A DNA stretch of 64,000 nucleotides from Lentibacter algarum. GTDB taxonomy: Bacteria > Pseudomonadota > Alphaproteobacteria > Rhodobacterales > Rhodobacteraceae. How positions within the stretch are numbered: position 1 is the stretch's first letter; each line of letters begins with the position of its first letter. The DNA lies in NCBI RefSeq assembly GCF_040580765.1, contig NZ_CP158687.1, positions 2,976,001 to 3,040,000 on the forward strand, given 5' to 3'. The position numbers and the translations under genes are program-made. Shown here piece by piece: positions 22,396 to 39,228 of this stretch. The notes under the pieces were generated by a model that saw only the letters and a program-made list of their open reading frames with translations, was not told the DNA's origin and ran no database searches.

Positions 22396-22739
22396 CGAAA
22401 TTTGGTTGGTAGGTTTCGCGGCCGATCGGCAACAGGCGGATAGCTTTGCCCCAAAATCCATACCATAGCTACACGTAAAATCTCATCGGGAAAATCCGGT
22501 TTTGAATTTGGATGAGCGTCCGCTTGCAGCCTCGCAACGTGGGTGGCTCGCACTTGCAGCGAAATTCCGCTATCCGCCCTTCCTGTAGAAATGTGCATGG
22601 CGCAGCATTTGTCACTTTGGGGTTTTCTTGCGTTCACTCCGATTGACACCAATATTCTCACCAGCTCAATTCTGCTCCCGAAAAAAAATCAGTCGCCATT
22701 TCCCCGCCCGACCACTCGCAATGAGCCGCCGGACGGGGG
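22396..22739. other. intergenic region holding the left limit of element copy A
   Basis: No gene is credible here. From 22580 onward the sequence is the same as at 33449 onward in element copy B; before 22580 the two regions differ, though similar text (gcagcgaa, ttccgc) suggests older shared sequence. The stretch CTGTAGAAATGTGCATGGCG and the following bases also look like non-coding sequence found repeatedly in roseobacter genomes. Confidence 0.5.
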
Positions 22740-22955
22740 TTATTTTTGGTTAGCCTTGGCTAGCCCTCGATTGACGACGTAGGTGGCCAGCCAGCGCCAG
22801 TAGTCTGCGACACTGCCAAAGCCTTGGCCCTGAGCGGCAAGGTCTTCTGCCTCATCAAGTGTCAGCCCCCCATCATACTGTACGATGGCAGCCCGCTCCT
22901 CGAAGGCCTCGATGTCAGGGATTAGGCTCGGGTCTTCTGTATGGAGGCAGCTCAT
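22740..22955 (-). CDS. 71-aa conserved small protein coupled to integrase 1
   Basis: Not recognised by name. It is acidic, with AFEERAAIVQYDGGLTLDEA and DLAAQGQGFGSVADYWRWLA. The ERAAIxxxDGGL pattern is like short ORFs near integrases and primases in alphaproteobacterial mobile DNA. ATG overlaps the stop of integrase 1 (ATGA at 22952-22955), so the two are translated together. The protein and its DNA are identical in copy B, unlike integrase 1. An excision or directionality factor is one possibility, from context only. Confidence 0.7.
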   Translation of the reverse strand: MSCLHTEDPSLIPDIEAFEERAAIVQYDGGLTLDEAEDLAAQGQGFGSVADYWRWLATYVVNRGLAKANQK

Positions 22956-24226
22956 GATGTGCCCTCCCAGTCTGGCAGCCTCACCCCGTCCACAATCTCC
23001 CGCTTTTGGGCGTCGGATATCCCCGCCGAGTAGAGCCCGTAGGTCAGCTTATTGGCGGACCTTGCGGAGTGATGCCCGACGAGGCTTGCGGTGAAGTGCT
23101 CTGGAACGCCTGTGCGCTCACACTGGGTGATGAACCACTTACGGGTGGAGTGGAACACCGTGCCTCTGAGCTCTGGGTGACGCCTGCGCAGATAGGCGTA
23201 GCGCTTTACGACCCTGTCCACGCTGAGGTACGGGAAGAGCCGTCCTGACGTTGGCAGGGTGGTATCCAGCAGCTGCTCCAGCACCCCATGCAAAGGCACC
23301 TCCCGCTCTGCTGCCTTGGACTTCAGCAAGCGCACCCTGTTGGGCTTGATGCTGATGAAGCGCCCAAGGTTGCCCTTTGCTGTGACGTCCTCAGCCATGA
23401 GCCCGCAGATCTCGCCGGAGCGCATACCTGTGAGCAGCCCGAAGAGCAGAGCACTGTGCAGCACCCTGTCCTTGGCACTGAGGAGGATACGCACCTGCGC
23501 ATCACTCAGCATGCCGTGGGGATGGACCTCAGGCCTGTCCTTGACCTTGAGGGCTCCCCATGGGTTTGTCTCCAGCTCCCCTTCCCCAACGCACCAGTCA
23601 AGGAACTGGGACATCTGCTTGAGGATACGCGCCTGGGTCTGGGGTGCCGACGTGGTGCTCTCCTGCTCCTGGGAGAGCGTTGCAAGCTCAGCCAAGGTGG
23701 CCCCCTTCCCCTCCCTGTACTTGCGCACGTTGGGAGAGAGCTGGGTGATGTAGCCGAGTACCTCCCGACCTTGTGCTTGGGTCAGCGCTCCTACCTGCTC
23801 GTTCCCCAAATGCGAGCAGAGCAACTCCAAGGCAAAGCGCACCGACTTGTAACTGCCTGGACGGAGGCGCTCAGAGGCTTCTGTCAGGTAGGCTTGGGCC
23901 AGCTCCGCTACCAGCCCATCGCCCACAAGACGAGCACGCTGATATCGAGGGCGAGTAACCCCCAGTCGAGGAGCTTGGGCAGCAGTGGGGATATCAGGGG
24001 GAGTAACGGTGAGAGGGGTAGCAGCGGCATGGGCCTGAGCCTCCTTGATGAGAGTTGTAAAGGTTTGGTTGAGCTCAGCCACACGCAGCTTGGCTTGGGT
24101 GGCATCGCTGGTCTTCAGGGATTGCTTGAGGGCGCTGCCGAGGATCGGCTGCAGTGCCTTGGGGTAGGTTCTGCGGTAGATCCAGGTGTTGTGCCTTTTG
24201 TAGGCGTATTTGATCTGTGGCGACAT
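22952..24226 (-). CDS. tyrosine integrase 1, copy A
   Basis: A 424-residue tyrosine recombinase. The N-terminus IKYAYKRHNTWIYRRTYPKA resembles the arm-binding/DUF6538-like start of phage integrases. A core-binding domain follows, and the catalytic domain has Arg in TGMRSGEICGL, His-x2-Arg in FHSTRKWFITQ, His in VGHHSARSANK, and Tyr in LTYGLYSAG. ATG at 24226 has AAAGGAGA just upstream and is preferred over the longer frame from 24247. It is about nine-tenths identical to the copy B protein, with most differences between about residues 70-95 and 135-245. Confidence 0.9.
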   Translation of the reverse strand: MSPQIKYAYKRHNTWIYRRTYPKALQPILGSALKQSLKTSDATQAKLRVAELNQTFTTLIKEAQAHAAATPLTVTPPDIPTAAQAPRLGVTRPRYQRARLVGDGLVAELAQAYLTEASERLRPGSYKSVRFALELLCSHLGNEQVGALTQAQGREVLGYITQLSPNVRKYREGKGATLAELATLSQEQESTTSAPQTQARILKQMSQFLDWCVGEGELETNPWGALKVKDRPEVHPHGMLSDAQVRILLSAKDRVLHSALLFGLLTGMRSGEICGLMAEDVTAKGNLGRFISIKPNRVRLLKSKAAEREVPLHGVLEQLLDTTLPTSGRLFPYLSVDRVVKRYAYLRRRHPELRGTVFHSTRKWFITQCERTGVPEHFTASLVGHHSARSANKLTYGLYSAGISDAQKREIVDGVRLPDWEGTS

Positions 24227-24334
24227 GACGTCTCCTTTCTGGGGCAATGGCCCCGCTTGTGGGGTGTGGGTTGGGTTTTGTGATGCAGAACAAGGTGCGT
24301 CAGGGACTAAGCCCTTCCCTGACGCCTGCTTGGG

Positions 24335-24535
24335 CTAGTTTGGTCCAGGAAGGACCCGCAGAACCAAAGCGATGTCTGGTTCTCCGTACTCCCCAGAGAG
24401 AGGTCCTGTGAGGGCTGTCCCAGTGATGAGGTCCTCAAAGACCTCCTCGACCAGGAACGCATGCTCTGGGATGTCGTCAAAGCCAGCAAGCAGCACAGTG
24501 CAGCCTGGCGTAATGGGTGGTGTATGCTTATCCAT
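24335..24535 (-). CDS. 66-aa conserved small protein, copy A
   Basis: Unknown function. Acidic, starting MDKHTPPITPGCTVLLAGFD and containing HAFLVEEVFEDLITGTALTG. Only three residues differ from the copy B protein (Lys3, Thr5 and Leu16 become Gln, Arg and Ile), so it is probably a real gene. It lies one base downstream of the 76-aa membrane ORF and upstream of integrase 1 in the same orientation, suggesting one operon. Confidence 0.6.
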   Translation of the reverse strand: MDKHTPPITPGCTVLLAGFDDIPEHAFLVEEVFEDLITGTALTGPLSGEYGEPDIALVLRVLPGPN

Positions 24536-24536
24536 C

Positions 24537-24767
24537 TCAGCCCCTCCTCAGCAGAAGGTCAGGCAGCAGCAGGCCAAGGATGAGGCTCAGTGGCACTGGG
24601 AAGGGTAAGGGCTTGAGGAACTCAGGCAGTCCCGCCAGAACAACAAGCGCCCCTGCCAGAGCCTGGGGCACTGCCAGTGAGATGTCCCAGCGTCGCTTCA
24701 GCTGCCACTCCAAGACAAGCCGAAGCCCACCCCCTGCAAGAACAAGGGCCGTAAAGGTCGTAAACAT
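24537..24767 (-). CDS. 76-aa conserved membrane protein, copy A
   Basis: Unknown function. Two or three hydrophobic segments (MFTTFTALVLAGGGLRLVL, ISLAVPQALAGALVVLAGL, VPLSLILGLLLPDLLL) mark it as a small inner-membrane protein. The copy B version is nearly the same. It is the first gene after the iteron-like array, reading leftward. Its role could be signalling, transport or a holin-like pore; nothing in the sequence decides. Confidence 0.6.
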   Translation of the reverse strand: MFTTFTALVLAGGGLRLVLEWQLKRRWDISLAVPQALAGALVVLAGLPEFLKPLPFPVPLSLILGLLLPDLLLRRG

Positions 24768-24844
24768 GATCGGTCTCCATGATGATTGTGATCACCATAG
24801 ATGCGAGGAACTCCTCAGTTTTTGCGGGGGACTTGAGACAGCCC

Positions 24845-24958
24845 AACTCGCCAAAGCAGCACCGCAACTCGCCAGCAACTCTCCAAGCGCGCGCGCCTCC
24901 CTGGAGAGTAGATTATGACACAATATCAGCGCTCTAGGAGTGAACTCTCCAACTCTCC
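24845..24958. repeat. iteron-like AACTCKCC array, copy A
   Basis: Five direct octamers: AACTCGCC at 24845-24852 and 24866-24873, AACTCTCC at 24877-24884, 24943-24950 and 24951-24958. There is also an inverted relative (GGAGAGTA) at 24903. The spacing between the third and fourth holds a CATAAT box readable on the minus strand. The array is conserved in copy B. It lies between the cargo and the leftward operon, so it is either an operator cluster for that operon or a replication/partition origin. Confidence 0.55.
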
Positions 24959-24988
24959 AGGCACTTTCAACTCATAAAAGGTGTGCCT

Positions 24989-25402
24989 TTATCGATCCCG
25001 CGTGTCGTTCACGTTGTCCAGCTGCGTCCCATGCGTCAGGTGCAACGGGTTGATGCAGCGGCGATTGTGACACTTGTGGCGCACAACATCTTCGCTGCTC
25101 GGTATCAACGCATTTCCTGCCCAGTATATCAGTTGGTAGGCGTAAACCTGTTTTCCCTTCACAGAGATACGCTTTGATCTTCCTTGAGAGGCTTCCAGAC
25201 AACCTCCAACCGAGAGTTTTGCCTCAGCAAGGAGATCTTTGATCAGAACAGCCGTAACCGTAGCATCATCAATCACCTGCGCCCACCACTCCTTGTCAGG
25301 CGTTTGAGCAATCAAAAACAAATCACCTCGGACGAAGCCACGCAATCGCACTTCCATTGAGGAAAGCCACGCATCCACGCTTTGTTCAAAAGGGGGCATC
25401 AT
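24989..25402 (-). CDS. HNH endonuclease-like protein
   Basis: A 137-residue protein whose C-terminus has the HNH zinc-finger nuclease signature: RHKCHNRRCINPLHLTHGTQ followed by LDNVND. The N-terminal half is unremarkable. It overlaps the end of the helicase gene by 17 bases. Its last two codons and stop (GATCGATAA) lie in the element backbone, so the cargo junction at 24999/25000 falls inside the gene: whatever is placed in the slot can use this backbone stop. It may nick or cut DNA during element replication or transfer (inference). Confidence 0.8.
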   Translation of the reverse strand: MMPPFEQSVDAWLSSMEVRLRGFVRGDLFLIAQTPDKEWWAQVIDDATVTAVLIKDLLAEAKLSVGGCLEASQGRSKRISVKGKQVYAYQLIYWAGNALIPSSEDVVRHKCHNRRCINPLHLTHGTQLDNVNDTRDR

Positions 25403-27047
25403 CGACGGGCTTTTTCATGTCGCGGTCTAGATATTCATATTTGATACCAAAGCCGATTTCTTCCAAAGCTGGAGCAAGCACCTCATTCAGGTGAGCTTCA
25501 ATGCTCTGCTTGTAGTGAACCGTTTGGAGCATACCTCGCTCTGGATGAGCATCGGGGTGGTAAAACGCGTGTGCTGATCCCTGCCCGCCCCAAGCGAACT
25601 TTTTCTTTTTCCAGCCCAAACGGTCAAAGCTGTATTTCGCAGCATTCGGATTGCGATGCGCAAAATACGAAAGCAGCTTGTTTGCATATCTTACGGGGAC
25701 GAACCTTATTTTATGTTCCTCCAGGAACTCCCCAAGCATTTCTTCAACAACGTCAGGTGCCAATGCACTTATTTCTCGCATGACCTCCGTGGCCAGCTCA
25801 TTCACATTCAACGAATATGGATTGAAATTCTCAGCTTGAGGTCGACGCAACAGGGCCCGATACAATTCAGCAATGCCCTTATCAGACGCATAAGCATACT
25901 TTACTTCAGCAACCAGCTTCACAAAATCATCATATGCAGCGCCACCAGCAGCATAACCTTCGTGATCCAAGTGGATGATGTAAAACCGACGATCACCAGC
26001 TTCAAGCCAAATGGGTTTGTGGTTCGTCGTCAATATGAAGCAACATCTATGGTCTATCGGCTCAATATCTTTGTTTTTGCCCTCAGCCATCGTTTGGCGT
26101 TCAGAGATCAAAGTTTTCAGCTTGTTCCCATCATCAGAGTTCTGCGCAACTTTTACCTCCTCCGCATAAATCAGTTTCTTCAACAAGATTGGCTTATTGA
26201 ACCTATCGATAATCGGCTTAATGCCTTGCTGTTCCGAGGAATTCTCTTCGCCAAAAAGCTGCTTCACAATGGAAGCAAGTGTTGATTTCCCTGTTCCATG
26301 ACGTTCAGAGAACAGAAATATTGCCCAGGACGGTTTGTCCGCTTCGTTTTGCAAGCACCACGAAAGCCAATCAAGAAACACTTCTTTTTCAGAGGTGTTT
26401 TTGAAGATGAAGTTGAGGAAGCGGTCAAAGACTTTCATGTTTGGTTCTATGTTGCGTAATTTGCGAAACGCTGGCTCGATCCACGCGTTCACGGCATACA
26501 TCCCACCATCAAACGTCAACCTTGCAGTCTTACCAGGAACAGATTCCACCACACCGTTCCAGACAGGAATTGTCATACCAGGCTCTGCAGTGGGGTTATT
26601 TGTGAGAGCATCCATCAGTGCCTTGAGCTTTTCAGGCCCAATTTCAAAGCTTGGAAAGCTTGCTCGCACCCTAGCGAACACAACCATCGCAAGGTCTGCA
26701 CGCGTTATTGATTTATCTAGCTTGCCCAGCTCAAAGAACACCATTTCCCGGCGCACAAATTGCGATGACAAATACTTCAGAACCTCAATATCCGAGGGGA
26801 TGATTGCGTCACCCTCCTCATCAACAGGAACAAAGACTTCATGATCCGCAAAGGGATAACTTCCCAAGCCTTGCTCATAAATCCGCTCCAGCTCCAGAAA
26901 CTCAGGGCTTTCACTGGCCAAATCTAGGGCCATATTCTCGATTTCTTCGTCAGTGTATTGGCGGCCAAGTGTCTTTTGGATCGCATCGCGAACGATGTTA
27001 TCGTCAAGATCGACAAGGCTGGAGTTTTTTTTGTCATTCTTGGGCAT
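25386..27047 (-). CDS. SF3/D5-type primase-helicase-like ATPase
   Basis: A 553-residue protein. Walker A is FSERHGTGKSTLASIV at about residues 247-262; a Walker B-like LLKKLIYAEEVKV and motif C CCFILTTNHKP follow, then GDRRFYIIHLD. This is the arrangement of virus and plasmid superfamily 3 helicases with DUF5906-like cores. The N-terminal 200 residues lack an obvious primase motif. Start choice is uncertain: ATG at 27047 (MPKNDKKN) or further upstream at 27074. It probably unwinds DNA for replication of the excised element; in copy B a polymerase-like gene occupies this slot instead. Confidence 0.85.
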   Translation of the reverse strand: MPKNDKKNSSLVDLDDNIVRDAIQKTLGRQYTDEEIENMALDLASESPEFLELERIYEQGLGSYPFADHEVFVPVDEEGDAIIPSDIEVLKYLSSQFVRREMVFFELGKLDKSITRADLAMVVFARVRASFPSFEIGPEKLKALMDALTNNPTAEPGMTIPVWNGVVESVPGKTARLTFDGGMYAVNAWIEPAFRKLRNIEPNMKVFDRFLNFIFKNTSEKEVFLDWLSWCLQNEADKPSWAIFLFSERHGTGKSTLASIVKQLFGEENSSEQQGIKPIIDRFNKPILLKKLIYAEEVKVAQNSDDGNKLKTLISERQTMAEGKNKDIEPIDHRCCFILTTNHKPIWLEAGDRRFYIIHLDHEGYAAGGAAYDDFVKLVAEVKYAYASDKGIAELYRALLRRPQAENFNPYSLNVNELATEVMREISALAPDVVEEMLGEFLEEHKIRFVPVRYANKLLSYFAHRNPNAAKYSFDRLGWKKKKFAWGGQGSAHAFYHPDAHPERGMLQTVHYKQSIEAHLNEVLAPALEEIGFGIKYEYLDRDMKKPVDDAPF

Positions 27048-27162
27048 GCAGCATTTATCCTTTGTTGCGACCATACGTTGCACAAAGCAAAATTCCACCA
27101 CAACTCGTTAACTGCCTTATAACGCAAAACCCCCACTGCTGCGTACAGTGAGGGCTATGTTC

Positions 27163-27753
27163 CTAGAACATATCATCGTCATGGTGTGGCACTGCATGGA
27201 AGCCATTGTTTCCCTGACCTTTGCAGGGAGACCGGTAGCCCTTAAGCCAATCAGTCATCTCAAATTCTATATCCTGCCAGTCGTGCTCGTAACTGGGCAT
27301 ATATTCATTGAAGCAAGAAGCTGCGCCTTTTCTGGGGCCTGACGCTGACAGCAAAGCCTGGATCACCTCATCAGGTAGATGCCATTGATGATGCAGACTG
27401 CTGAGGATCACATGGCAGGTAGAAGCGTCAGTGTCCGTGACAATATGGGCGTTGTCAGCCGTAGCATTGTTGTCACCTTTCAGATGCACACGGTGCACAA
27501 GGGAATGCGGAGACGCCGCCAAGACATCTGCCACAATCTCAAAGTGGTCAGTCATGTTCTGATGGCTTCTGCTGTGTTGGTTTTCATAGGCGGTACGGTA
27601 TCGCTTGGGACACTCACCGTAATACTCGACACGCTGTGCATGGGTGATGTGGAAGGACAACTTGAAGCGGCCCGAGGTAAAGACCTGCAGGCTGTAACCC
27701 TGATAGGTTTCCAGCGCGTCCTGTGAGAGCTTTTGGTCAAAATATTTGGTCAT
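27163..27753 (-). CDS. hypothetical protein of cargo A, about 196 aa
   Basis: Not recognised. It is a soluble protein rich in His and Tyr, with TYQGYSLQVFTSGRFKLSFH, GECPKRYRTAYENQHSRSHQ, HDWQDIEFEMTDWLKGY and a His/Asp-rich C-terminus ending HHDDDMF. ATG at 27753 is the internal start; the frame is open to 27774. It precedes the helicase gene by about 115 bases in the same orientation. No catalytic pattern is visible. Confidence 0.6.
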   Translation of the reverse strand: MTKYFDQKLSQDALETYQGYSLQVFTSGRFKLSFHITHAQRVEYYGECPKRYRTAYENQHSRSHQNMTDHFEIVADVLAASPHSLVHRVHLKGDNNATADNAHIVTDTDASTCHVILSSLHHQWHLPDEVIQALLSASGPRKGAASCFNEYMPSYEHDWQDIEFEMTDWLKGYRSPCKGQGNNGFHAVPHHDDDMF

Positions 27754-27968
27754 GTTGGTAATCATCTTTCTCAATACAAAAGCACCCCAGGCGCTAACCT
27801 GAGGTGGGGTAATGGATAAGGTTCAAAAGGTAAGGATTAAGGGATAAGTCGTAATATGTAATATATAAATCATAAGGGTTTGGGAGCTCCAAACACCTGT
27901 TTTTTCTAATCCCAAAAACAAACAATACAGCTATGTATTATTCATAAATGTCGGCTTTCTTTTTGCCT

Positions 27969-28052
27969 TTAACGCCTTAGGCTTACAGTGATGCAAAACA
28001 CTTCAGCCTGCTCTTCCGTTTTGCCGCAAAAAATATCCTGCGGCTCTGTCAT
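27969..28052 (-). pseudogene. nine-codon stub of the slot gene, copy A
   Basis: Starts with ATG overlapping the stop of integrase 2 (ATGA at 28049-28052) and reads MTEPQDIFC, the same nine residues that open the polymerase-like gene in copy B. It then runs into unrelated sequence and stops after 27 codons. The homology break is at 28025/28026. It marks where the copy A cargo replaced, or was replaced by, the polymerase-like gene. Confidence 0.75.
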
Positions 28053-29356
28053 TGCCACACCTTCTCCAGGTTCTCCCGCATGACCTCCAGCGCATAGCCT
28101 GAGCCGTAGTTGGCGGCGACTGTGTTGGTACTGTGCCCAAGGATGGCAAGCGAGATGGCCTCTGGACAGCCTGTGTTTCTGAGCTTGTCCTTCATACGGT
28201 GGCGCAGCGAGTGCATGGTCAGCTTCTTGTCAGTGATGACGGTGCGAAGGCGCTTCATCAGCATCGCCGAGCAGCTGTCAGCCCCTCGCTCCTTGGCGTA
28301 ACGGGCAAACAGCGGTGCCTCTGGGTCTTGCGCGTTGTTCTGGAAGAGCTTGCCGACCGCTGTCACAGCTTCTGCTGAGAGTGGCACAGAGCGCTGCGAG
28401 TTGGTGGTCTTCAGGCCCCTCCAAGGGGTGGGGCTTATGTGCAGGCACTTGGCCACGAGGTCACAGTCTTTGATCCTCAGGCCAGATACCTCTGACACCC
28501 GTGCTCCTGTATCCCTCAACGTGACATACAGAGCCCAGGCTGTATTATCTCCCGAGAAGGCTGGTTCAAGGAGGGTGAGTTGAGTGTCTGTCAGGGGAAG
28601 TCTGTCGTGCTTGCTGGCCCCTGCCCCTTTGATCTTGAGGTTCGTGAACACATTCGGGAGGGTCAGTGCATGTTCCACAATCACATGGTTGATGGCTGTG
28701 CGCACAACTCCCAGCATTCTCACGGCACTGTTGGCGGAGACCCTACTCAGCAAGTGGTCCCGCAACTCGTTGGCATCCTGTCGAGTGATGTCCGTCAGAG
28801 GCGTATGCTTGAGCTTTTGCCTGCCGAAGACAGCCTGCATATCTGTGCGCAACCGCTCCACCCGCTGGCCGATCTCTCTGGCGGCCTTGGGTGTGTCTGA
28901 CTTGTAAGCCACATACTCTTGCAGGGCCTTCTCCAGCGTCATGGTATCTGGCTTCAAGCGACCCGAGTAGACCTGCTGCACCACCTCCGCAGGCATCTTC
29001 TGTTTGTGCAGCGCTTTGCCAAGCTCATTCAGCGCATCCTCAATCGGGGAGTACTCAGGTACAGCCTCTGCAAGCACAAGCTCTGCCACCTCATCCCCAA
29101 GTGCGCCTCGGATAAGCTCCACACTGCGCTCTCGTGCAGACTTGTTCGTCTCGTCATTCAGCAAAGCCTCAACACGGGCGTGCACCAAGGGCAGCGACTG
29201 CATGGCCTCACGGTAGCTGTCTCCCAGCTGGCGATACAGCGTGTCCTTCCCAATCAGGGCTCGCAGGTGCTTTGGCACGTTGCGCTTATATCGGAAGCTG
29301 CCATTGGCACGGCGGAACACATAGCGGGGAAGGTTTATCGGCATCTCGTCATTCAT
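28049..29356 (-). CDS. tyrosine integrase 2, copy A
   Basis: A 435-residue tyrosine recombinase. A DUF6538-like N-terminus (YVFRRANGSFRYKRNVPKHL) and a SAM-like core-binding domain precede the catalytic domain, with Arg in DTGARVSEVSGL, His-x2-Arg in MHSLRHRMKDK, His in LGHSTNTVAANYG, and the nucleophilic Tyr in NYGSGYALEV. ATG at 29356 (MNDEMPINL) fits relatives; the longer frame to 29485 runs into leader sequence. It ends in ATGA with the slot gene. Its leader holds arm-type repeats and the tRNA-Leu core, so this is the enzyme that integrates into tRNA-Leu. Confidence 0.9.
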   Translation of the reverse strand: MNDEMPINLPRYVFRRANGSFRYKRNVPKHLRALIGKDTLYRQLGDSYREAMQSLPLVHARVEALLNDETNKSARERSVELIRGALGDEVAELVLAEAVPEYSPIEDALNELGKALHKQKMPAEVVQQVYSGRLKPDTMTLEKALQEYVAYKSDTPKAAREIGQRVERLRTDMQAVFGRQKLKHTPLTDITRQDANELRDHLLSRVSANSAVRMLGVVRTAINHVIVEHALTLPNVFTNLKIKGAGASKHDRLPLTDTQLTLLEPAFSGDNTAWALYVTLRDTGARVSEVSGLRIKDCDLVAKCLHISPTPWRGLKTTNSQRSVPLSAEAVTAVGKLFQNNAQDPEAPLFARYAKERGADSCSAMLMKRLRTVITDKKLTMHSLRHRMKDKLRNTGCPEAISLAILGHSTNTVAANYGSGYALEVMRENLEKVWQ

Positions 29357-29441
29357 GTTCAGGACTGTGTTCCCCAAACCTGACCAAGTGCAACCCAAAC
29401 AGACCGTCCAGGACTGACAAATCCCGCCCCAAACTCGACAA

Positions 29442-29474
29442 AGTGGTCCCAAAAGCGGTCCCGAAAGTGGTCCT
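29442..29474. promoter_or_regulatory. arm-type integrase sites, copy A right end
   Basis: Three nonamers at exact 12-base steps: AGTGGTCCC 29442-29450, AGCGGTCCC 29454-29462, AGTGGTCCT 29466-29474. They lie about 55 bases inside the tRNA core, as integrase arm sites do. Confidence 0.6.
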
Positions 29475-29529
29475 ATGCAGGCCACAGCATCAACGTTTGC
29501 TAGGTTTTATCGGAAAAACGACTGGTTAT

Positions 29530-29547
29530 TGGTGCCCAGGAGAGGAC
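29530..29547. other. att core between copies A and B
   Basis: TGGTGCCCAGGAGAGGAC is identical to the 3' end of tRNA-Leu including CCA (39211-39228). It is the right end of copy A and the left end of copy B. The first base beyond it (29548) no longer matches the tRNA. Confidence 0.85.
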
Positions 29548-29606
29548 GTCGTACTTCCGCGATTGATGTTGCTTTGCAGGGACTTAGCGTCAGCGCAAAA
29601 CTCAGA

Positions 29607-29627
29607 AGTGGTCCCGAAAGCGGTCCC
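29607..29627. promoter_or_regulatory. arm-type integrase sites, copy B left end
   Basis: AGTGGTCCC at 29607-29615 and AGCGGTCCC at 29619-29627, again exactly 12 bases apart and in the same orientation as the right-end set, 60 bases inside the core. Confidence 0.6.
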
Positions 29628-29793
29628 ATTTATACATTAAGTCAGAGTGACGATTTGTGGCTTGCACCCAAAGCTGGGCGGGTTGGCAGGTCTGCTTCCG
29701 GCCCTTAGCAGCCGTTCGCGCCTGTTGCGGCGAAGGTCTGGAAAGAGCCCTCTTTACCGATTTTCTGCAACGCGGCTAATGTCCGCTTCCAAG

Positions 29794-29825
29794 AAGTGGC
29801 CCCCGCCATCCGGCAGAGGCCACTT
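29794..29825 (-). terminator. stem-loop after the metal module
   Basis: Perfect 8-base inverted repeat AAGTGGCC (29794-29801) / GGCCACTT (29818-29825) just downstream of the leftward anchor-protein gene. There is no T-run on the expected side, so termination is only probable. Confidence 0.4.
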
Positions 29826-29830
29826 GGTTC

Positions 29831-31687: not shown

Positions 31688-31697
31688 ATCGTTGTTT

Positions 31698-31976
31698 ATG
31701 ACAAAACACACCCAACATGCAACCCATCCAGCCATCGTCAAGCGGCTGAAACGTGCCGACGGGCATCTTCTGAGCGTGATAGAGATGATCGAGGCGCAGC
31801 GCCCTTGCGCCGACATCGCCCAGCAGCTCCATGCCGTCGAAAAGGCTATCACCCAAGCCAAGCGCACCCTGATTCAGGACCATATCGACCATTGCCTTGA
31901 TGCGGCTATGGCTGGCGCGGGCGGTGAAGGAACGCCTGCAACGGCGCAGTTCAAGGCCATCACCAAGTATCTCTGA
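31698..31976 (+). CDS. metal-responsive repressor of the CsoR/RcnR/FrmR family
   Basis: A 92-residue all-helical regulator. KRLKRADGHLLSVIEMIEAQ begins the DUF156 fold. Candidate metal ligands are the Cys in QRPCADIAQQLHAVEKA, the His in the same block, and the His-rich N-terminus MTKHTQHATHPAI. The additional His and Cys in IQDHIDHCLDAAMAG suit a Ni/Co or formaldehyde sensor; the His-rich N-terminus and neighbours favour Ni/Co. ATG at 31698 is chosen over an upstream TTG. The MFS gene follows after nine bases. Confidence 0.85.
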   Translation: MTKHTQHATHPAIVKRLKRADGHLLSVIEMIEAQRPCADIAQQLHAVEKAITQAKRTLIQDHIDHCLDAAMAGAGGEGTPATAQFKAITKYL

Positions 31977-31985
31977 GGTTTCTAT

Positions 31986-33326: not shown

Positions 33327-33608
33327 AACGTGTCAACGGGCGAGTGCCTTGAGCATTAAAGCAGCCTCCTGGGCAAAGGCATCGAAAGCTAGCTTCGTCC
33401 GCAAAGCAGACCTCGGAACAAATCGCAGCGAATGTCTGCATTCCGCCATTCCTGTAGAAATGTGCATGGCGCAGCATTTGTCACTTTGGGGTTTTCTTGC
33501 GTTCACTCCGATTGACACCAATATTCTCACCAGCTCAATTCTGCTCCCGAAAAAAAATCAGTCGCCATTTCCCCGCCCGACCACTCGCAATGAGCCGCCG
33601 GACGGGGG
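33327..33608. other. intergenic region with left limit of the copy B backbone
   Basis: No gene is credible. From 33449 the sequence equals that from 22580. Before this, the text (GCAGCGAATGTCTGCATTCC) resembles common roseobacter non-coding sequence. Confidence 0.5.
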
Positions 33609-33824
33609 TTATTTTTGGTTAGCCTTGGCTAGCCCTCGATTGACGACGTAGGTGGCCAGCCAGCGCCAGTAGTCTGCGACACTGCCAAAGCCTTGGCCCT
33701 GAGCGGCAAGGTCTTCTGCCTCATCAAGTGTCAGCCCCCCATCATACTGTACGATGGCAGCCCGCTCCTCGAAGGCCTCGATGTCAGGGATTAGGCTCGG
33801 GTCTTCTGTATGGAGGCAGCTCAT
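33609..33824 (-). CDS. 71-aa conserved small protein coupled to integrase 1, copy B
   Basis: Identical in protein and apparently in DNA to the gene at 22740. ATGA overlap with integrase 1 at 33821-33824. It falls wholly inside the 414-bp perfectly shared block, which suggests recent gene conversion or recent duplication of this end. Confidence 0.7.
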   Translation of the reverse strand: MSCLHTEDPSLIPDIEAFEERAAIVQYDGGLTLDEAEDLAAQGQGFGSVADYWRWLATYVVNRGLAKANQK

Positions 33825-35095
33825 GATGTGCCCTCCCAGTCTGGCAGCCTCACCCCGTCCACGATCTCCCGCTTCTGGTCATCACTGATCCCCGCGGAGT
33901 ACAGCCCGTAGGTCAGCTTATTGGCGGACCTTGCGGAGTGATGCCCGACGAGACTTGCGGTGAAGTGCTCGGGGACACCAGTACGCTCACACTGGGTGAT
34001 GAACCACTTGCGGGTGGAGTGGAACACCGTGCCGCTGAGCTCAGGGTGACGCCTGCGCAGGTACGCATAGCGTTTGACCACCCTGTCCACGCTGAGCTGC
34101 GGGAAGAGCCTTCCTGACGTTGGCAGCACATTATCCAGCAGCTGCTCCAGCACCCCATGCAGAGGCACCTCCCGCTCTGCTGCCTTGGACTTCAGCAAGC
34201 GGACCCTGTTGGGCTTGATGCTGATGAAGCGGCCGAGGTTGCCCTTGGCTGTGACATCCTCCGCCATGAGCCCGCAGATCTCACCGGAGCGCATACCTGT
34301 GAGCAGCCCGAAGAGCAGAGCACTGTGCAGCACCCTGTCCTTGGCGCTGAGGAGGATACGCACCTGCTCATCACCCAACATACCATGCGGATTTACCTCT
34401 GGCCTGTCTTTGACCTTGATGACCTCCCAGGGGTTTGTCTGCAGCTCCCCTTCCCCAACACACCAGTCAAGGAACTGGGACATCTGCTTCAGGATACGTG
34501 CCTGTGTCTGGGGTGCCAGCGTGGTGCTCTCGTTCTCCTGGGAGAGCGTTGCAAGCTCAGCCAGGCCAGCCTTCTTCCCCTCCCTGTACTTGCGCACGTT
34601 GGGAGAGAGCTGGATGATGTAGCCGAGCACCTCCTTGCCCTGGATGAGCGTGAGGTCTCCGACAGCTTGCTGACCCAAATGCGAGGTCAGCAGTGACAGG
34701 GCAAAGCGCACCGACTTGTAACTGCCTGGACGTAGGCGCTCAGAGGCTTCTGTCAGGTAGGCTTGCGCAAGCTCCGCTACCAACCCATCGCCCACAAGAC
34801 GAGCACGCTGATATCGAGGGCGAGTAACCCCCAGTCGAGGAGCTTGGACAGCAGTGAGGGTATCAGGGGGAGTAACGGTGAGAGAGGTAGCAGCGGCATG
34901 GGCCTGAGCCTCCTTGATGAGGGTTGTGAAGGTTTGATTGAGCTCAGCCACACGCAGCTTGGCTTGGGTGGCATCGCTGGTCTTGAGGGATTGCTTGAGG
35001 GCGCTACCGAGGATCGGCTGCAGCGCCTTGGGGTAGGTTCTGCGGTAGATCCAGGTGTTGTGCCTCTTGTAGGCGTATTTGATCTGTGGCGACAT
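33821..35095 (-). CDS. tyrosine integrase 1, copy B
   Basis: 424 residues with the same catalytic residues as copy A (Arg in TGMRSGEICGL, His-x2-Arg in FHSTRKWFITQ, His in VGHHSARSANK, Tyr in LTYGLYSAG). ATG at 35095 follows an AAAGGAGA ribosome-binding site. Compared with copy A, the first 70 residues and the catalytic half are nearly unchanged, whereas the core-binding part differs often (for example LTSHLGQQAVGDLTLIQGKE against LCSHLGNEQVGALTQAQGRE). That is the region that reads the core site, so the two copies may prefer different cores. Confidence 0.9.
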   Translation of the reverse strand: MSPQIKYAYKRHNTWIYRRTYPKALQPILGSALKQSLKTSDATQAKLRVAELNQTFTTLIKEAQAHAAATSLTVTPPDTLTAVQAPRLGVTRPRYQRARLVGDGLVAELAQAYLTEASERLRPGSYKSVRFALSLLTSHLGQQAVGDLTLIQGKEVLGYIIQLSPNVRKYREGKKAGLAELATLSQENESTTLAPQTQARILKQMSQFLDWCVGEGELQTNPWEVIKVKDRPEVNPHGMLGDEQVRILLSAKDRVLHSALLFGLLTGMRSGEICGLMAEDVTAKGNLGRFISIKPNRVRLLKSKAAEREVPLHGVLEQLLDNVLPTSGRLFPQLSVDRVVKRYAYLRRRHPELSGTVFHSTRKWFITQCERTGVPEHFTASLVGHHSARSANKLTYGLYSAGISDDQKREIVDGVRLPDWEGTS

Positions 35096-35203
35096 GACGT
35101 CTCCTTTCTGGGGCAATTGCCCCGCTTGTGGGTTGTGGGTTGGGTTTTGTGATGCAGAACAACATGCGTCAGGGACTAAGCCCTTCCCTGACGCCTGCTT
35201 GGG

Positions 35204-35404
35204 CTAGTTTGGTCCAGGAAGGACCCGAAGAACCAACGCAATGTCTGGTTCTCCGTACTCCCCAGAGAGAGGTCCTGTGAGGGCTGTCCCAGTGATGAGG
35301 TCCTCAAAGACCTCCTCGACCAGGAACGCATGCTCTGGGATGTCGTCAAAGCCAGCGATCAGCACTGTGCAGCCTGGCGTGATGGGGGGTCTGTGCTGAT
35401 CCAT
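35204..35404 (-). CDS. 66-aa conserved small protein, copy B
   Basis: Same protein as at 24335 apart from three substitutions near the N-terminus (starts MDQHRPPITPGCTVLIAGFD). One base separates it from the 76-aa ORF. Conservation of protein while silent positions change supports a real gene. Confidence 0.6.
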   Translation of the reverse strand: MDQHRPPITPGCTVLIAGFDDIPEHAFLVEEVFEDLITGTALTGPLSGEYGEPDIALVLRVLPGPN

Positions 35405-35405
35405 C

Positions 35406-35636
35406 TCAGCCCCTCCTCAGCAGAAGGTCAGGCAGCAGCAGGCCAAGGATGAGGCTCAGTGGTACTGGAAAGGGAAAGGGCTTGAGGAACTCAGGCAGTC
35501 CCGCCAGAACAACAAGCGCCCCTGCCAGAGCCTGGGGCACTGCCAGTGAGATGTCCCAGCGTCGCTTCAGCTGCCAATGCAGGACAAGCCGAAGCCCACC
35601 CCCTGCAAGAACAAGGGCCGTAAAGGTCGTAAACAT
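35406..35636 (-). CDS. 76-aa conserved membrane protein, copy B
   Basis: Counterpart of the gene at 24537, with hydrophobic segments in the same places and only a few substitutions (RLVLHWQLKRRWDI against RLVLEWQLKRRWDI). First gene of the leftward backbone operon, downstream of the octamer array. Confidence 0.6.
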   Translation of the reverse strand: MFTTFTALVLAGGGLRLVLHWQLKRRWDISLAVPQALAGALVVLAGLPEFLKPFPFPVPLSLILGLLLPDLLLRRG

Positions 35637-35713
35637 GATCGGTCTCCATGATGATTGTGATCACCATAGATGCGAGGAACTCCTCAGTTTTTGCGGGGGG
35701 CTTGAGACAGCCC

Positions 35714-35827
35714 AACTCGCCAAAGTAACACCGCAACTCGCCAGCAACTCTCCAAGCGCACGCGCCTCCCTGGAGAGTAGATTATGGCACAATATCAGCG
35801 CTCTAGAGGTGAACTCTCCAACTCTCC
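35714..35827. repeat. iteron-like AACTCKCC array, copy B
   Basis: Same five octamers and spacing as in copy A, starting with AACTCGCC at 35714-35721 and ending with two adjacent AACTCTCC. The intervening bases have changed at several positions but the octamers have not, which suggests that they are bound by something. Confidence 0.55.
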
Positions 35828-35868
35828 AGGCACTTTCAACTCATAAAAGGTGTGCCTTTATCGATCCC

Positions 35869-37706
35869 CAAGGTGATACAGTGGCAACGGTTGGGCGCTG
35901 TACCAACTATCCAAGCATCCAAGTATCCAGGCACATATTTTGCTTTTGGGTGTACCCCCAGCTCTTACGGGCCCCCTAGGTGGACAGCGCGTAGGGTCCC
36001 CTCCCAGGGTTCCCCTCAGGTGCCTGTTAGGGCCCCCTTAGGGTGGTATTGTTCTTCTGTTATTCATCACAGCCATACTCACCCTCTAGGGCCAGTCCTT
36101 GGATCTCCCTGTGGAGAGCCCTTGTGAGTTACTCTCAGGTGCTTGCTGGGGGTGTGTCGGGATACAGGATGACGTCCTCGGCGGTGTTACAGGTCATTGA
36201 TCCTTGGTGATGCCTTGGGGAGCTCCATACGGGTCCCCTATATGAGGAGGGTTGGAGGACCCCCTTAGGATCCACCCTAGGGTGGTATTGTTCTTCTGTT
36301 CTTCTTTTACCCACACACAACAACACCTAGCCTTACAGGTGGTACTCATACCCTTGAGGGTAGCTCTTGCAGGTCTTCCTCTCGTCTTGCCAGGAGGGAC
36401 ACCAGCGGTGGGCTTGCAGGCCCTACCCCAGGCGGACCTGAGGGGTGATCCCGGTGTAATCCTTGAAGGTCTCCTTCATGATCCTCATCGTTGTGCCTTT
36501 GTCTGCATCAGCAACAAGAACAGCATCATGGATGGGCAGCGCAACAACACCCTGGCACCTGAGGGCTTCCAGAACCCCCACAAGGATATCCGCCTCCGTG
36601 CGGAAGAGCTGCATGCCTAGGCCTGAGGTCATCAAGGGGAAGATTGCGGGATGCTTCTGCTCCACAGCGGTAAGGAGCTCTCTCATGCTGATCCTTGATG
36701 GGATGTGCTTACGAGCCCCCTTGGGCAGCCTTTTGGGGAGCGCTGGACTGTTGATGATCGCCTGCATCACCTTCTTGATACCTGGGCGGCAGGTCACTGG
36801 GATGCCATACTCAGAGAGGTCATAAAGGTCCCCTGAGGGCAGTTGTTGTTGTGCTTGAGCTTCAGCATACAAAAGCAAAAGGCTCATTTGGCCGTAGTCC
36901 AACTCCACCACAGCATCCTGGTTGATGCGGATGTGTTCCTGACGTTCCTCTGAAGACATCGCCTGCCAGAACCCTCCGTAGAGCCTACCCCCTTGGGCAA
37001 AGTCTGAGTTGTTGAAGATGCGGCGCAGACGGCGTTGTGTTGGGTTCACCTGAAGATGGCTGCAAGTGATGTCTGCTGCGTGGAGCCAGACGTTGATGTC
37101 TCTCATTTGATCCCGCAGAGCCTGAGTGGTCGGATCGTCCTCGTAGTCCTCATACTCTGCAATGCTGTTCGCGTGACGCTTGGGAGAGCGCAGGATCACC
37201 ACTTCCTCTTCAGCGGCCTGGCTGAGGTCATCTCTTGTGATCGCGTAGCGTTCAATCCGAGAGAGTAGCTTGGGGCCTGGCATCAGGATGGTTTGTCGTC
37301 CTCCCACAAAGGCCACGTTCAGATCATCATCGACCACCTCAAAGGTGCTGTGTCCCTTCTCGATCAGCACAAAGTCCATCTCGGGCGCTGACATCATGGT
37401 CAAGAGGTCTGGTAGGGTCTTGCCCAAGGCTGTTCCCTTGTACCGGGACTTTGATCTCAGGACTTTGTTGCTCAGCGGCAGGTGGAGACTGTTGTGTTCT
37501 GGTTCCAGAGCAACAGCACAGAGGTCACACAGGATCGCCTCAAGGGTTCGCTCATAGGTGATCTGATCAACTGCCCTGCGAGCACGCTTGCGGCTCTTGT
37601 GGAAGGCCTCATAACCCTCCAGCTGTGTTTGCACTTCTCTGATCAGTGCCTTCAGCTTATCGCTGCTCGCACACAAGAACGGGTTGAATGCTCGGGCTTT
37701 GTCTTT
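35869..37706 (-). other. variable cargo slot, copy B
   Basis: 1,838 bp unrelated to the copy A slot. It holds one long gene, the polymerase-like protein, whose first nine codons lie in the backbone, and a 550-bp repeat-rich intergenic region downstream of it. Confidence 0.8.
36039..36300. repeat. pair of 23-bp direct repeats in cargo B
   Basis: 36039-36061 and 36278-36300 are identical (TAGGGTGG, then TATTGTTCTTCTGTT). They are 239 bases apart, both preceded by CCC-rich palindromic text. CTCAGGTGC also occurs twice, near 36016 and 36135. On the minus strand each 23-mer ends in a run reading ACCACCCTA next to G-tracts. They may be promoters, protein-binding sites or the stems of two related RNAs. 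Confidence 0.6.
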
Positions 37707-37733
37707 GCAAAAAATATCCTGTGGCTCCGTCAT
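36423..37733 (-). CDS. DNA-polymerase-A-like protein of unknown function
   Basis: A 436-residue protein starting with ATG that overlaps the integrase 2 stop (ATGA at 37730-37733). The C-terminal half resembles a minimal polymerase palm: VVELDYGQMSLLLLYAEA (Asp279-Tyr280) is like polA motif A, DYSQIE; CRPGIKKVMQAIINSP (Arg316, Lys320/321) is placed like motif B; LPIHDAVLVADAD (His402-Asp403) is like motif C, VHDEVL. Upstream, RRIFNNSDFAQGGRLYGGFW is a block I recall from unnamed mobile-element proteins with the same motifs. No exonuclease domain or normal thumb and fingers are apparent. It probably serves element replication, where copy A has an SF3 helicase. Function unproven. Confidence 0.6.
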   Translation of the reverse strand: MTEPQDIFCKDKARAFNPFLCASSDKLKALIREVQTQLEGYEAFHKSRKRARRAVDQITYERTLEAILCDLCAVALEPEHNSLHLPLSNKVLRSKSRYKGTALGKTLPDLLTMMSAPEMDFVLIEKGHSTFEVVDDDLNVAFVGGRQTILMPGPKLLSRIERYAITRDDLSQAAEEEVVILRSPKRHANSIAEYEDYEDDPTTQALRDQMRDINVWLHAADITCSHLQVNPTQRRLRRIFNNSDFAQGGRLYGGFWQAMSSEERQEHIRINQDAVVELDYGQMSLLLLYAEAQAQQQLPSGDLYDLSEYGIPVTCRPGIKKVMQAIINSPALPKRLPKGARKHIPSRISMRELLTAVEQKHPAIFPLMTSGLGMQLFRTEADILVGVLEALRCQGVVALPIHDAVLVADADKGTTMRIMKETFKDYTGITPQVRLG

Positions 37734-39037
37734 TGCCACACCTTCTCCAGGTGCTCCCGCATGACCTCCAGCGCGTAGCCTGAGCCGTAGTTGGCGGCGA
37801 CTGTGTTGGTGCTGTGCCCAAGGATGGCGAGCGATATGGCCTCTGGACAGCCTGTGTTGCGTAGCTTGTCCTTCATGCGGTGGCGAAGGCTGTGCATGGT
37901 CAGCTTCTTGTCGGTGATGACGGTGCGTAGGCGCTTCATGAGCATGGCCGAGCAACTGTCAGCCCCACGCTCCTTGGCGTAGCGGGCAAACAGCGGTGCC
38001 TCTGGGTCTGAGGTCTGGTTCTGGATGAGCTTGCCGAGCGCTGCCACAGCCTCTGCTGAGAGTGGCACAGAGCGCTGCGAGTTGGTGGTCTTCAGGCCTC
38101 TCCAAGGGGTGGGGCTTATGTGCAGGCACTTGGCCACGAGGTCACAGTCTTTGATCCTCAGGCCAGATACCTCTGACACTCTGGCTCCTGTATCTCTCAG
38201 CGTGACATACAGAGCCCAGGCTGTGGCATCTCCCGAGAAGGCTGGTTCAAGGAGGGAGAGTTGAGTGTCTTTAAGGGGAAGTCTGTCGTGCTTGCTGGCC
38301 CCTGCCCCTTTGATCTTCAGGTTCGTGAACACATTCGGGAGGGTCAGTGCATGTTCCACAATCACATGGTTGATGGCTGTCCTTACAACCCCCAGCATCC
38401 TCACGGCACTGTTGGCGGAGACCCTGCTCAGCAAGTGGTCCCGCAACTCGTTGGCATCCTGTCGGGTGATGTCTGACAAAGCTACGTGCTTGAGCTTTTG
38501 CTTGCCGAAGACAGCCTGCATATCTGTGCGCAACCGCTCCACCCGCTGGCCAATCTCTCGGGCAGCCTTGGGTGTATCTGACTTGTAGGCCACATACTCC
38601 TGCAGGGCCTTCTCCAGCGTCATGGTGTCTGGCTTCAGGCGGCCCGAGTAGACCTGCTGCACCACCTCCGCAGGCAGCTTCTGCTTATGCAGCGCTTTGC
38701 CCAGGTCATTCAGCGCATCCTCAATCGGGGAGTACTCAGGCACAGCCTCCGCCAGCACAAGGTCTGCCACCTCATCCCCAAGCGCCCCTCGGATGAGCTC
38801 AACACTCCGCTCTCGGGCAGACTTGTTGGTCTCGTCATTCAGCAGAGCCTCAACCCGCGCATGTACCAAGGGCAGAGCCTGCATGGCCTCTCGGTAGCTG
38901 TCCCCCAACTGGCGATACAGCGTATCCTTCCCAAGCAGAGCCCGCAGGTGCTTTGGGACGTTGCGCTTATACCGGAAGCTGCCATTGGCACGGCGGAACA
39001 CATAGCGGGGAAGGTTTATCGGCATCTCATCATTCAT
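37730..39037 (-). CDS. tyrosine integrase 2, copy B
   Basis: 435 residues, closely matching the copy A protein with the same catalytic residues (Arg in DTGARVSEVSGL, His-x2-Arg in MHSLRHRMKDK, His in LGHSTNTVAANYG, Tyr in NYGSGYALEV). Substitutions are few and spread out, unlike those in integrase 1, consistent with a shared tRNA-Leu target. ATG at 39037 is chosen. The stop is coupled by ATGA to the polymerase-like gene. The attachment core is 175 bases upstream of its start. Confidence 0.9.
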   Translation of the reverse strand: MNDEMPINLPRYVFRRANGSFRYKRNVPKHLRALLGKDTLYRQLGDSYREAMQALPLVHARVEALLNDETNKSARERSVELIRGALGDEVADLVLAEAVPEYSPIEDALNDLGKALHKQKLPAEVVQQVYSGRLKPDTMTLEKALQEYVAYKSDTPKAAREIGQRVERLRTDMQAVFGKQKLKHVALSDITRQDANELRDHLLSRVSANSAVRMLGVVRTAINHVIVEHALTLPNVFTNLKIKGAGASKHDRLPLKDTQLSLLEPAFSGDATAWALYVTLRDTGARVSEVSGLRIKDCDLVAKCLHISPTPWRGLKTTNSQRSVPLSAEAVAALGKLIQNQTSDPEAPLFARYAKERGADSCSAMLMKRLRTVITDKKLTMHSLRHRMKDKLRNTGCPEAISLAILGHSTNTVAANYGSGYALEVMREHLEKVWQ

Positions 39038-39122
39038 GCTCAGGACTGTGTTCCCCAAACCTGACCAAGTGCAACCCAAACCGACCGCCCAGGACTGACA
39101 AACCACCCCCCAAACTCGACAA

Positions 39123-39155
39123 AGTGGTCCCAAAAGCGGTCCCGATAGTGGTCCC
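39123..39155. promoter_or_regulatory. arm-type integrase sites, copy B right end
   Basis: AGTGGTCCC 39123-39131, AGCGGTCCC 39135-39143 and AGTGGTCCC 39147-39155, at 12-base steps, 56 bases inside the tRNA core. Same layout as in copy A. Confidence 0.6.
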
Positions 39156-39210
39156 ATGCAGGCCACAACATCAACGTTTGCTAGGTTATATCGGGAAATC
39201 GACTGGTTAT

Positions 39211-39228
39211 TGGTGCCCAGGAGAGGAC
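39211..39228. other. att core at the tRNA-Leu 3' end
   Basis: TGGTGCCCAGGAGAGGAC, identical to 29530-29547. Right boundary of copy B and junction with core chromosome. Confidence 0.85.

Follow-up and report, generated by a model that had tools for sequence, protein, structure and literature searches.

In a 64,000-nucleotide stretch of Lentibacter algarum DNA (the window), a sequence-only reading had noticed two copies of one backbone in tandem at a tRNA-Leu gene, with entirely different genes lodged between the same flanks. This arrangement raised the question of what kind of element the two copies represent and how the genes between their flanks came to differ.

Anatomy and boundaries of the tandem copies

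BLASTN comparison bore out the two tandem backbones, hereafter A and B. Positions 22556-24999 of A are 93.9% identical to 33425-35868 of B (2,444 bp), and 28026-29558 of A are 92.5% identical to 37707-39238 of B (1,532/1,533 bp), the flank lengths of 2,420 and 1,522 bp given at first being nearly right but slightly short. Between the two flanks the copies have nothing in common by BLASTN; identity collapses from 100% to chance level immediately past 24999 and climbs sharply at about 28026, in agreement with the claim that different genes lie between the same flanks. These breakpoints delimit a replication slot at 25000-28025 in A and at 35869-37706 in B, both on the reverse strand. Direct repeats longer than 2 kb can mislead assemblers, but an assembly artefact, or a recent tandem duplication of a single element, is extremely improbable, given that the window lies within a one-contig 3.28-Mb genome, that the flanks differ at 6-8% of sites, that two more Int1 copies are present elsewhere in this genome and that the pattern recurs in other genomes.

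As first described, each copy has two different tyrosine integrases, three small ORFs of 71, 66 and 76 amino acids (100, 95 and 97% identical between A and B, respectively) and an octamer array. The order on the reverse strand is int2-slot-p76-p66-int1-p71, so that the two integrase genes are set apart by the slot. Int2 (478 amino acids, Phage_integrase, 1e-14 for the copy in A) is encoded at 28049-29485 in A and 37730-39166 in B (95% amino acid identity), and Int1 (431 amino acids, DUF6538 plus Phage_integrase) at 22952-24247 and 33821-35116 (93%). The hydrophobic small protein p76 (24537-24767 in A, 35406-35636 in B) has 27 distinct homologues, 17 of them aligned; p66 (24335-24535 and 35204-35404) has 60 distinct homologues in the loci, of which 31 were aligned, and 2,656 in the database; and p71 (22740-22955, overlapping the Int1 stop, and 33609-33824) is identical in both copies. 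None of the three had a Pfam match. A GC hairpin follows on the same strand (22702-22738 in A, with T8 12 nt further on, and 33571-33607 in B).

The slot of A holds the three genes originally recognized there, all on the reverse strand: a 203-amino acid orphan, orf203 (27163-27774), with relatives in loci L034, L045, L037, L048 and L206; an SF3 primase-helicase of the DUF5906/VapE-like type (25386-27101; PDB primase 6k9e, 2e-11); and a putative HNH endonuclease (24989-25402), whose 3' end coincides with the slot edge. The slot of B holds POL (36423-37733, reverse strand, 436 amino acids), whose start codon overlaps the Int2 stop. Its motifs presumably resemble those of family-A polymerases. 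The description of POL as polymerase-like gained no support from profiles, however, since phrog_4756, a family of unknown function, was its sole match and no PDB or Pfam profile linked it to the A-family polymerases, the homology by which a CcPol-type element would be recognized. The Pfam scan covered 14 A/B proteins (two short ORFs at 35852-36326 were left out), and among these no relaxase or conjugation gene, and no packaging, capsid-remodelling or AlpA-type gene, was found.

The target gene, tRNA-Leu(CAG), was located at 39211-39296 on the reverse strand by ARAGORN and Rfam, and its 3' end forms the core of a 29-bp direct repeat, the att site, present within the tRNA (39200-39228) and between A and B (29519-29547). 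Octamers of the form GYGGTCCY lie on the forward strand, three with a 12-bp period on the Int2 side of A (29443-29474), two on the distal arm of B (29608-29627) and three on the Int2 side of B (39124-39155). Octamer pairs gave 28 matches in 80 sources (1.12 Mb) versus none in the reversed control, and the matches are positioned at element ends. Because the tRNA-Leu 3' end is duplicated, with octamers inside both ends, B can be delimited from att to att as a reverse-strand element of about 9.7 kb at 29548-39228. The att repeat and the two further octamers at 29519-29627 likewise place the genes at 29831-33326 within B as cargo, an assignment that the sequence-only reading had missed; they encode a 211-amino acid orphan, HupE/UreJ, a 126-amino acid orphan, a metal-sensing repressor and an MFS transporter.

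Copy A could be followed only as its part homologous to B (22556-29558, reverse strand). No distal att of A was found in the window at up to three mismatches, nor a third copy of the att core in the genome at up to one mismatch (two copies in all), and since this distal att is missing, A may be a remnant. Next to A lie genes for a CoA-transferase and an acyl-CoA dehydrogenase that it may carry as cargo; a homologous pair occurs in one of six same-genus genomes. Among 30 family and 6 genus loci no empty site was seen beyond the tRNA-Leu gene, where the genes vary.

Probable exchange of the slot and of an integrase

Among 77 loci, fetched from the best 80 of 106 confirmed matches, the backbone order recurs elsewhere with varied slot contents, namely POL alone, POL plus SF3-HNH, or orf203 plus SF3-HNH. 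In Yoonia SKA53, two copies at tRNA-Leu (L032 and L033) have flanks that are 99.8% and 99.5% identical in nucleotide sequence and SF3 proteins that are only 30% identical in amino acids, with sharp slot edges. The pattern of shared flanks around different slots is thus repeated in a pair with far more similar flanks, and homology is also lost around SF3-HNH between L034 and L045. Alternatively, copies that parted long ago might each have lost or gained slot genes independently, with no exchange involved. B is without SF3-HNH, A is without POL and SKA53 carries both, so that some of the difference between A and B could reflect deletions from an ancestor with a fuller gene set. Loss cannot yield the SKA53 pattern, however, because both copies there retain SF3-HNH in versions 30% identical, and the sharp slot edges also argue against this explanation, which we consider improbable.

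The integrase facing the target is exchanged as well. A third copy in the window's own genome, located at a tRNA-Thr gene (L102), is 92.8% identical in nucleotides to B over 33551-37952, whereas its Int2 is only 57-58% identical in amino acids to that of B. Since a 93% identical core is thus joined to a 57% identical Int2, this integrase must swap too, and the constant recombination chassis originally proposed holds for p66-Int1-p71 but not for Int2, being narrower than two integrases. Likeness among Int2 proteins does not simply track the tRNA, the Int2 of B being 53% identical to that of L045 at tRNA-Leu and 58% to that at tRNA-Thr. The flanks of A and B are themselves mosaic, with dS values of 0 in p71, 0.05 in p76 and 0.28 in Int1. 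Both integrases are under purifying selection (dN/dS of 0.09-0.19 in 15 pairs for Int1, and 0.105 for Int2 of A/B).

This anatomy, the att repeats, the tandem arrays and the mosaic identities were observed directly, and they are most probably explained if A and B are tandem non-conjugative integrative elements built from interchangeable modules, which Int2 inserts at tRNA-Leu and whose slots are swapped by homologous recombination. The target module would consist of Int2 and att, and next to it would lie a slot for replication genes (POL and/or SF3-HNH or orf203); the core running from p76 through p66, Int1 and p71 to the hairpin would stay constant, and cargo would occupy a further slot at the distal end. 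Int2 would recombine the element circle with the tRNA-Leu 3' end, the octamers flanking the core would serve as its arm sites, and a newcomer at the same tRNA would shove the earlier element outward to generate a tandem array. Slots would most likely be exchanged when the long conserved flanks of two copies, in tandem or otherwise sharing a cell, undergo homologous recombination. For A and B we infer mobility, excision, replication and transfer between cells, together with a role for Int1 and HNH-driven exchange. HNH cutting may aid the swap, the 3' end of the HNH gene being the slot edge in A, and the presence of a nuclease gene edging an exchanged block recalls homing-endonuclease exchange as described in phages (PMC10448857), although A sits in an integrative element and its HNH nuclease is putative. 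Some exchanges did not need HNH, since B and L102 are without it.

Distribution and comparison with known elements

Of the 65 loci with enough sequence, 61 have p66 no more than 300 bp upstream of Int1, and in the other four it was not found before Int1; p71 directly follows Int1 in 56 of 74 loci and was not found after it in 18. Judged from these sequences, p66-Int1-p71 with the hairpin is the constant part of the family. p66 was found in 18/295 sampled genera (genomes) of Rhodobacteraceae and in a single genome, the window's own, of 385 in an alphaproteobacterial class-level draw; named relative loci belong nearly throughout to Rhodobacteraceae or Alphaproteobacteria. The family is apparently common in Rhodobacteraceae and unnamed. 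The tRNA-Leu gene stands as the site in the window but is not the exclusive target, tRNA-Thr and tRNA-Gln genes being used by relatives. Complete att-to-att units were found at tRNA-Leu (L033, L034 and L042) and tRNA-Thr (L102). Copies stand in tandem not only in the window but also in SKA53 and L034, and att and arm evidence indicates more of them in L025, L042 and L048.

A second, larger cargo slot, overlooked in the sequence-only reading, lies distal to p71. The cargo of the relatives is varied, with nutrient, metal and catabolic genes, the metabolic cargo occupying this second slot. A GcvT-family cargo gene was rejected as a DMSP demethylase (178 versus a cut-off of 410 bits).

The family of A and B, being tRNA-bounded with a tyrosine recombinase and cargo, resembles tycheposons in layout, which the sections consulted describe as carrying nutrient-related cargo in marine bacteria and for which, as for A/B, they describe no conjugation genes (PMC10872708). 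The constant second integrase, the p66-p71-hairpin core, the octamer arms and the swapping replication slot set the A/B family apart. Strand-biased circularizing integrative elements (SEs) also combine two tyrosine recombinases, small core proteins and cargo in a non-conjugative element. Their core is a single intA-tfp-intB operon, srap lies at one of the ends, and reports of them come from Gammaproteobacteria alone; A/B have neither this core nor such a host, their integrases being parted by the slot, their target a tRNA gene and their host a member of the Rhodobacteraceae. GInts share direct repeats and a tripartite layout (genes for recombination, cargo and a short distal end), but their ginABCD operon comprises three integrases and a small protein (PMC5385486), whereas A/B have two integrases and no operon of this type. 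Relaxase or conjugation genes, as expected of an ICE or IME, were not found in A/B.

PICMIs are phage satellites that form small islands in marine bacteria, encode excision and replication functions, lie beside fis in Vibrionaceae and depend on virulent phage (PMC10803314); in A/B no packaging or AlpA-type gene was recognized. It is nevertheless conceivable, if rather unlikely, that A/B are phage satellites packaged by a helper phage, with slot genes that serve satellite replication and are swapped in the manner of phage genes. The small size, the tRNA site and the lack of recognized conjugation genes are consistent with this possibility, as are the match of SF3 to phage and satellite-type primases and the 54 distant POL relatives (19-37% identity) in IMG/VR contigs. 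On the other hand, capsid, terminase and other packaging families are absent from the scanned A/B proteins, pattern searches of IMG/VR, which were not exhaustive, gave no Int1 or p66 relative, and phage records gave no POL relative and only weak Int1 relatives (at most 26% identity). The cargo, moreover, serves nutrient and metal functions and not defence.

Int1 and the tRNA-Gln relatives

Within the explanation by interchangeable modules, Int1, p66 and p71 would form a conserved second recombination unit. No Int1 site was found in two-integrase elements by self-comparison or by inverted-att, shuffle and motif scans. Similarity, inverted or direct, between the regions upstream of p76 and downstream of p71 was clearly above shuffles in L083 and L084 only and slightly above them in L033, L047 and L080; TGCCCC clusters were absent from the nine two-integrase sources scanned, and A and B contain no inverted att, self-comparison showing direct repeats only. 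The hairpin is a frequent end point of homology between copies, and in L032 it is directly followed by what may be an IS-like end; the hairpin is possibly a displaced terminator rather than a recombination site.

Int1 might instead act jointly with Int2 at the tRNA att, with no independent role, as in GInts or SEs, which are reported to need several recombinases for excision. The purifying selection on both integrases in the same elements and the failure to find a separate Int1 site agree with joint action. Across tRNA-Leu and tRNA-Thr elements, however, Int1 is 93% identical and Int2 57%, so that Int1 does not follow the target; at tRNA-Gln no integrase other than an Int1-type enzyme was found; and the two genes are parted by the slot instead of forming a tight recombinase operon. 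Joint action is accordingly an unlikely alternative.

In the tRNA-Gln relatives, which are more distant and in which one integrase, of the Int1 type, was found, 13 of 17 loci (11/14 plus 2/3) have three att sites (direct, inverted, direct) that bound a replication module and an Int1-cargo module. The inverted arms are 85-100% identical, and all four combinations of module orientation are present; one tRNA-Gln element belongs to Ruegeria sediminis CAU 1488. Inverted contig ends in L058, L070, L078, L079 and L084 were left uncounted as possible assembly effects. The yeast 2-micron plasmid has inverted repeats with tyrosine-recombinase sites and two invertible halves, whose flip has been proposed to switch the replication mode. 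A circle formed by a tRNA-Gln element would similarly be divided into two invertible halves by a pair of inverted repeats (about 400-660 bp), each with a tyrosine-recombinase site, and inverted sites inside inverted repeats are found in the same 13 of 17 loci but not in A or B. The tRNA-Gln relatives differ in being bacterial and integrating in tRNA genes.

The internal inverted att would let whole modules flip in these relatives. As a tentative scheme, to which we give somewhat less than even weight, the p66-Int1-p71 class would be a circle with two inverted att sites in near-identical inverted repeats, in which Int1 flips the modules and possibly switches the replication mode; the window elements would then form a derived branch, with integration at tRNA-Leu or tRNA-Thr passed on to Int2 and the former module borders turned into swap points. 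The three-att relatives point to an element that as a whole can invert its two halves by means of a tyrosine recombinase, an architecture of which no description was found in the literature searched on bacterial integrative elements. With the replicated pairs of same flanks and different slots, the exchange of modules between integrative elements can be put to a direct test, and, in an ecologically important family of marine bacteria, these widespread elements with their nutrient, metal and catabolic genes would account for part of the trade in niche genes among roseobacters.

Borders and unit order of the tandem copies

The sequence-only reading of two backbone copies in tandem was borne out by the comparison of A (22556-29558) and B, both on the (-) strand at tRNA-Leu, which share flanks of 2,444 bp (93.9% identical) and about 1,533 bp (92.5%) around unrelated slots of replication genes, and each of which contains two tyrosine integrases (Int1 and Int2), three small ORFs (p76, p66 and p71) and octamers. 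The slot edges are sharp, the copies matching at 50 of 50 bases as far as position 24999 and at chance level beyond. A 29-bp sequence including the 3' end of tRNA-Leu(CAG) (39211-39296) is repeated at 29519-29547, and these were the only two att copies in the genome at up to one mismatch. The att between A and B has octamers to either side, at 29443-29474 (towards A's Int2) and at 29608-29627 (past the att), and B has them on its Int2 side too (39124-39155); the two-octamer pattern gave 28 matches in 80 sources (1,122,815 bases) and none in reversed sequences. In L102, a copy at tRNA-Thr of the same genome bounded by a 16-bp att repeat (6132-6147 and 18527-18542), the far octamers stop about 60 bp short of the distal att copy. 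Because octamers flank the att in A and B and approach the distal att in L102, the unit order is att, octamers, Int2, slot, p76-p66-Int1-p71, hairpin, cargo, octamers and att. B spans 29548-39228 and has as cargo a HupE/UreJ protein, a metal-sensing repressor and an MFS transporter; A is without a distal end. Self-comparison of A and B gave direct repeats only, and no inverted att was found in them. Int2 would be the likely driver of integration and excision, with the octamers as its arms.

Downstream of p71 comes a GC stem (22702-22738 and 33571-33607) and, behind it, a T-run. At 56 of 57 sites after p71 in relatives, a stretch of 45 nt reached -15 kcal/mol or lower, versus 83 of 171 windows drawn at random from these loci. 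The conserved hairpin contains many G-U pairs, and a run of at least five T lies within 30 nt in 41 of the 57 sites, mostly 6-16 nt from the stem, a displacement that is unusual and unlike a normal intrinsic terminator.

Two further repeats were observed in the window. One of 39-40 bp (36027-36065 and 36265-36304, about 240 bp apart) lies between p76 and the putatively polymerase-like gene POL of B. The other is a near-identical pair of ORFs (4492-5316 and 9652-10518), presumably UTP-glucose pyrophosphorylase-like, one on each side of an ORF (5333-6271, (-) strand) that we take to be tyrosine-recombinase-like.

Conservation and distribution of the core

Int1 is conserved in the window elements. 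Over 15 pairs it had dN/dS values of 0.09-0.19, and Int2 gave 0.105 between A and B. In Int1 the predicted catalytic residues R276, K309, H366, R369, H392 and Y403/Y406 were invariant in 22 sequences. The spread of dS between A and B across the core genes (p71, 0; p76, 0.05; p66, 0.18; Int1, 0.28) points to gene conversion between the copies.

As the earlier reading had anticipated for a mobile-element family, the core genes occur together elsewhere: in 77 loci from named genomes, taken from the best 80 of 106 matches, p66 lay upstream of Int1 by no more than 300 bp in 61 of 65 loci and p71 followed Int1 in 56 of 74, several loci lacking p66 or p71 being truncated Int1 copies. Two of the loci (L031 and L047) come from MAGs labelled Bacteroidetes and Flavobacteriales, possibly binning errors. 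A fourth Int1 copy of the own genome (L103:9779-11272), with a p66 fragment, no p71 and no tRNA found near it, is likely a remnant. In L091 and L063, two inverted Int1 cores face each other on one contig.

Among 295 genomes of the family, one per genus in the p66 search, Int1 relatives (E up to 1e-60) were present in 17 and p66 profile matches in 18, and comparison of the two lists gave 15 genomes with both; in the class draw the profile matched 1 of 385 genomes, the window's own. One plasmid record, from Paracoccus versutus, carries Int1 (47%). Protein searches returned 2,656 p66 relatives among 6,626 candidates and at least 730 POL relatives among 8,000 scored, and the names were 'hypothetical' or uninformative among the 120 matches listed of each, one p66 entry being 'DUF4926'. 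A description of the family was not found in the literature, a weak negative as most subscription journals were outside the search.

Probable exchange of slots and cargo

The proposal of one backbone with varied slots found its counterpart in Yoonia SKA53, where L032 and L033 have flanks 99.8% (2,898 bp) and 99.5% (2,108 bp) identical, with no nucleotide similarity between the flanks and SF3 primase-helicases 30% identical in amino acids. The two loci share a contig: L032 begins at tRNA-Leu, and L033 begins at an att copy some 32 kb farther along. The comparison covered the loci but not the 10.8 kb that separate them. Elsewhere, L034 and L045 are about 86-91% identical in Int2, orf203 (the orphan ORF of A's slot) and the core, with the SF3-HNH region unaligned, and L102 is 92.8% identical to B from POL to the hairpin but just 57% in Int2 (amino acids).

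The cargo of L102 comprises a LysR regulator, a GcvT-family protein, an AMP-ligase, an aldehyde dehydrogenase and an enoyl-CoA hydratase. It is shared, as a 6.3-kb catabolic cassette (L102:11867-18162), with Thalassobium R2A62 (L027:11663-17958; 87% nucleotide identity), where it points the other way with respect to the core. Cargo measured 1.1-7.8 kb in nine other loci. Among 20 of the listed ORFs scanned, cargoes included ABC and TRAP transporters, KDPG aldolase with DGOK kinase, cyanate lyase, GcvT and acyl-CoA enzymes, often accompanied by their own regulator.

Slots would likely be exchanged via homologous recombination between co-resident copies. The HNH endonuclease could plausibly drive this exchange, a precedent being nuclease genes at the borders of exchanged blocks in phages (PMC10448857). 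The leading rival explanation is that phage helps transfer.

Relatives at tRNA-Gln and possible descent of the slot

Relatives at tRNA-Gln have a single Int1-type integrase (43-57% identical for most of the distant loci), and a scan of ten more ORFs, taken from four such loci, found no further recombinase. Most are bounded by direct repeats of 17-104 bp. When the 17-bp end of the tRNA was searched for in either orientation to locate att sites, the order direct, inverted, direct was found in 11 of 14 loci and in two of three additional ones, one of the additional loci being on a 3.73-Mb contig (L061, L064, L067, L072, L073, L075, L076, L081, L087, L088, L095, L205 and L207). The exceptions were L062 (two sites), L085 (one), L071 (direct, direct, inverted) and L210 (one site, a p66 fragment and no Int1). 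The tRNA-side module contained POL or SF3 in 12 of the 13 three-att loci (all except L067), and Int1 lay in the other module.

The two arms of each module mirror one another as inverted copies, with 85-100% identity in BLAST alignments. By an ungapped measure, circle repeats reached 406-664 bp in 8 of 11 loci, including L075 (546, with one short arm), and the short values in L067 and L073 reflect arms interrupted by indels. Both modules were found in both orientations, the replication gene and Int1 being, in the tRNA frame, (+,-) in L061, L073, L081 and L087, (-,+) in L064 and L076, (-,-) in L075, L095, L205 and L207, and (+,+) in L072 and L088. In nine of these elements TGCCCC words had a density of 7.4 per kb close to att sites (up to about 200 bp away) versus 0.5 per kb elsewhere, as expected of candidate arm sites.

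In the yeast 2-micron plasmid, each recombination site lies within one of two inverted repeats. The circle of a tRNA-Gln element would resemble it in holding attP and the internal att, one per inverted repeat, and integration by either site would place the replication module beside the tRNA, matching the observed order.

In both groups the replication module adjoins the tRNA and is followed by core and cargo. The slot edge in A lies at the HNH 3' end, which is covered also by the inverted arm of SF3-type tRNA-Gln elements. From this common order and the HNH 3' end at both borders, we infer that the window slot may descend from an att-bounded replication module.
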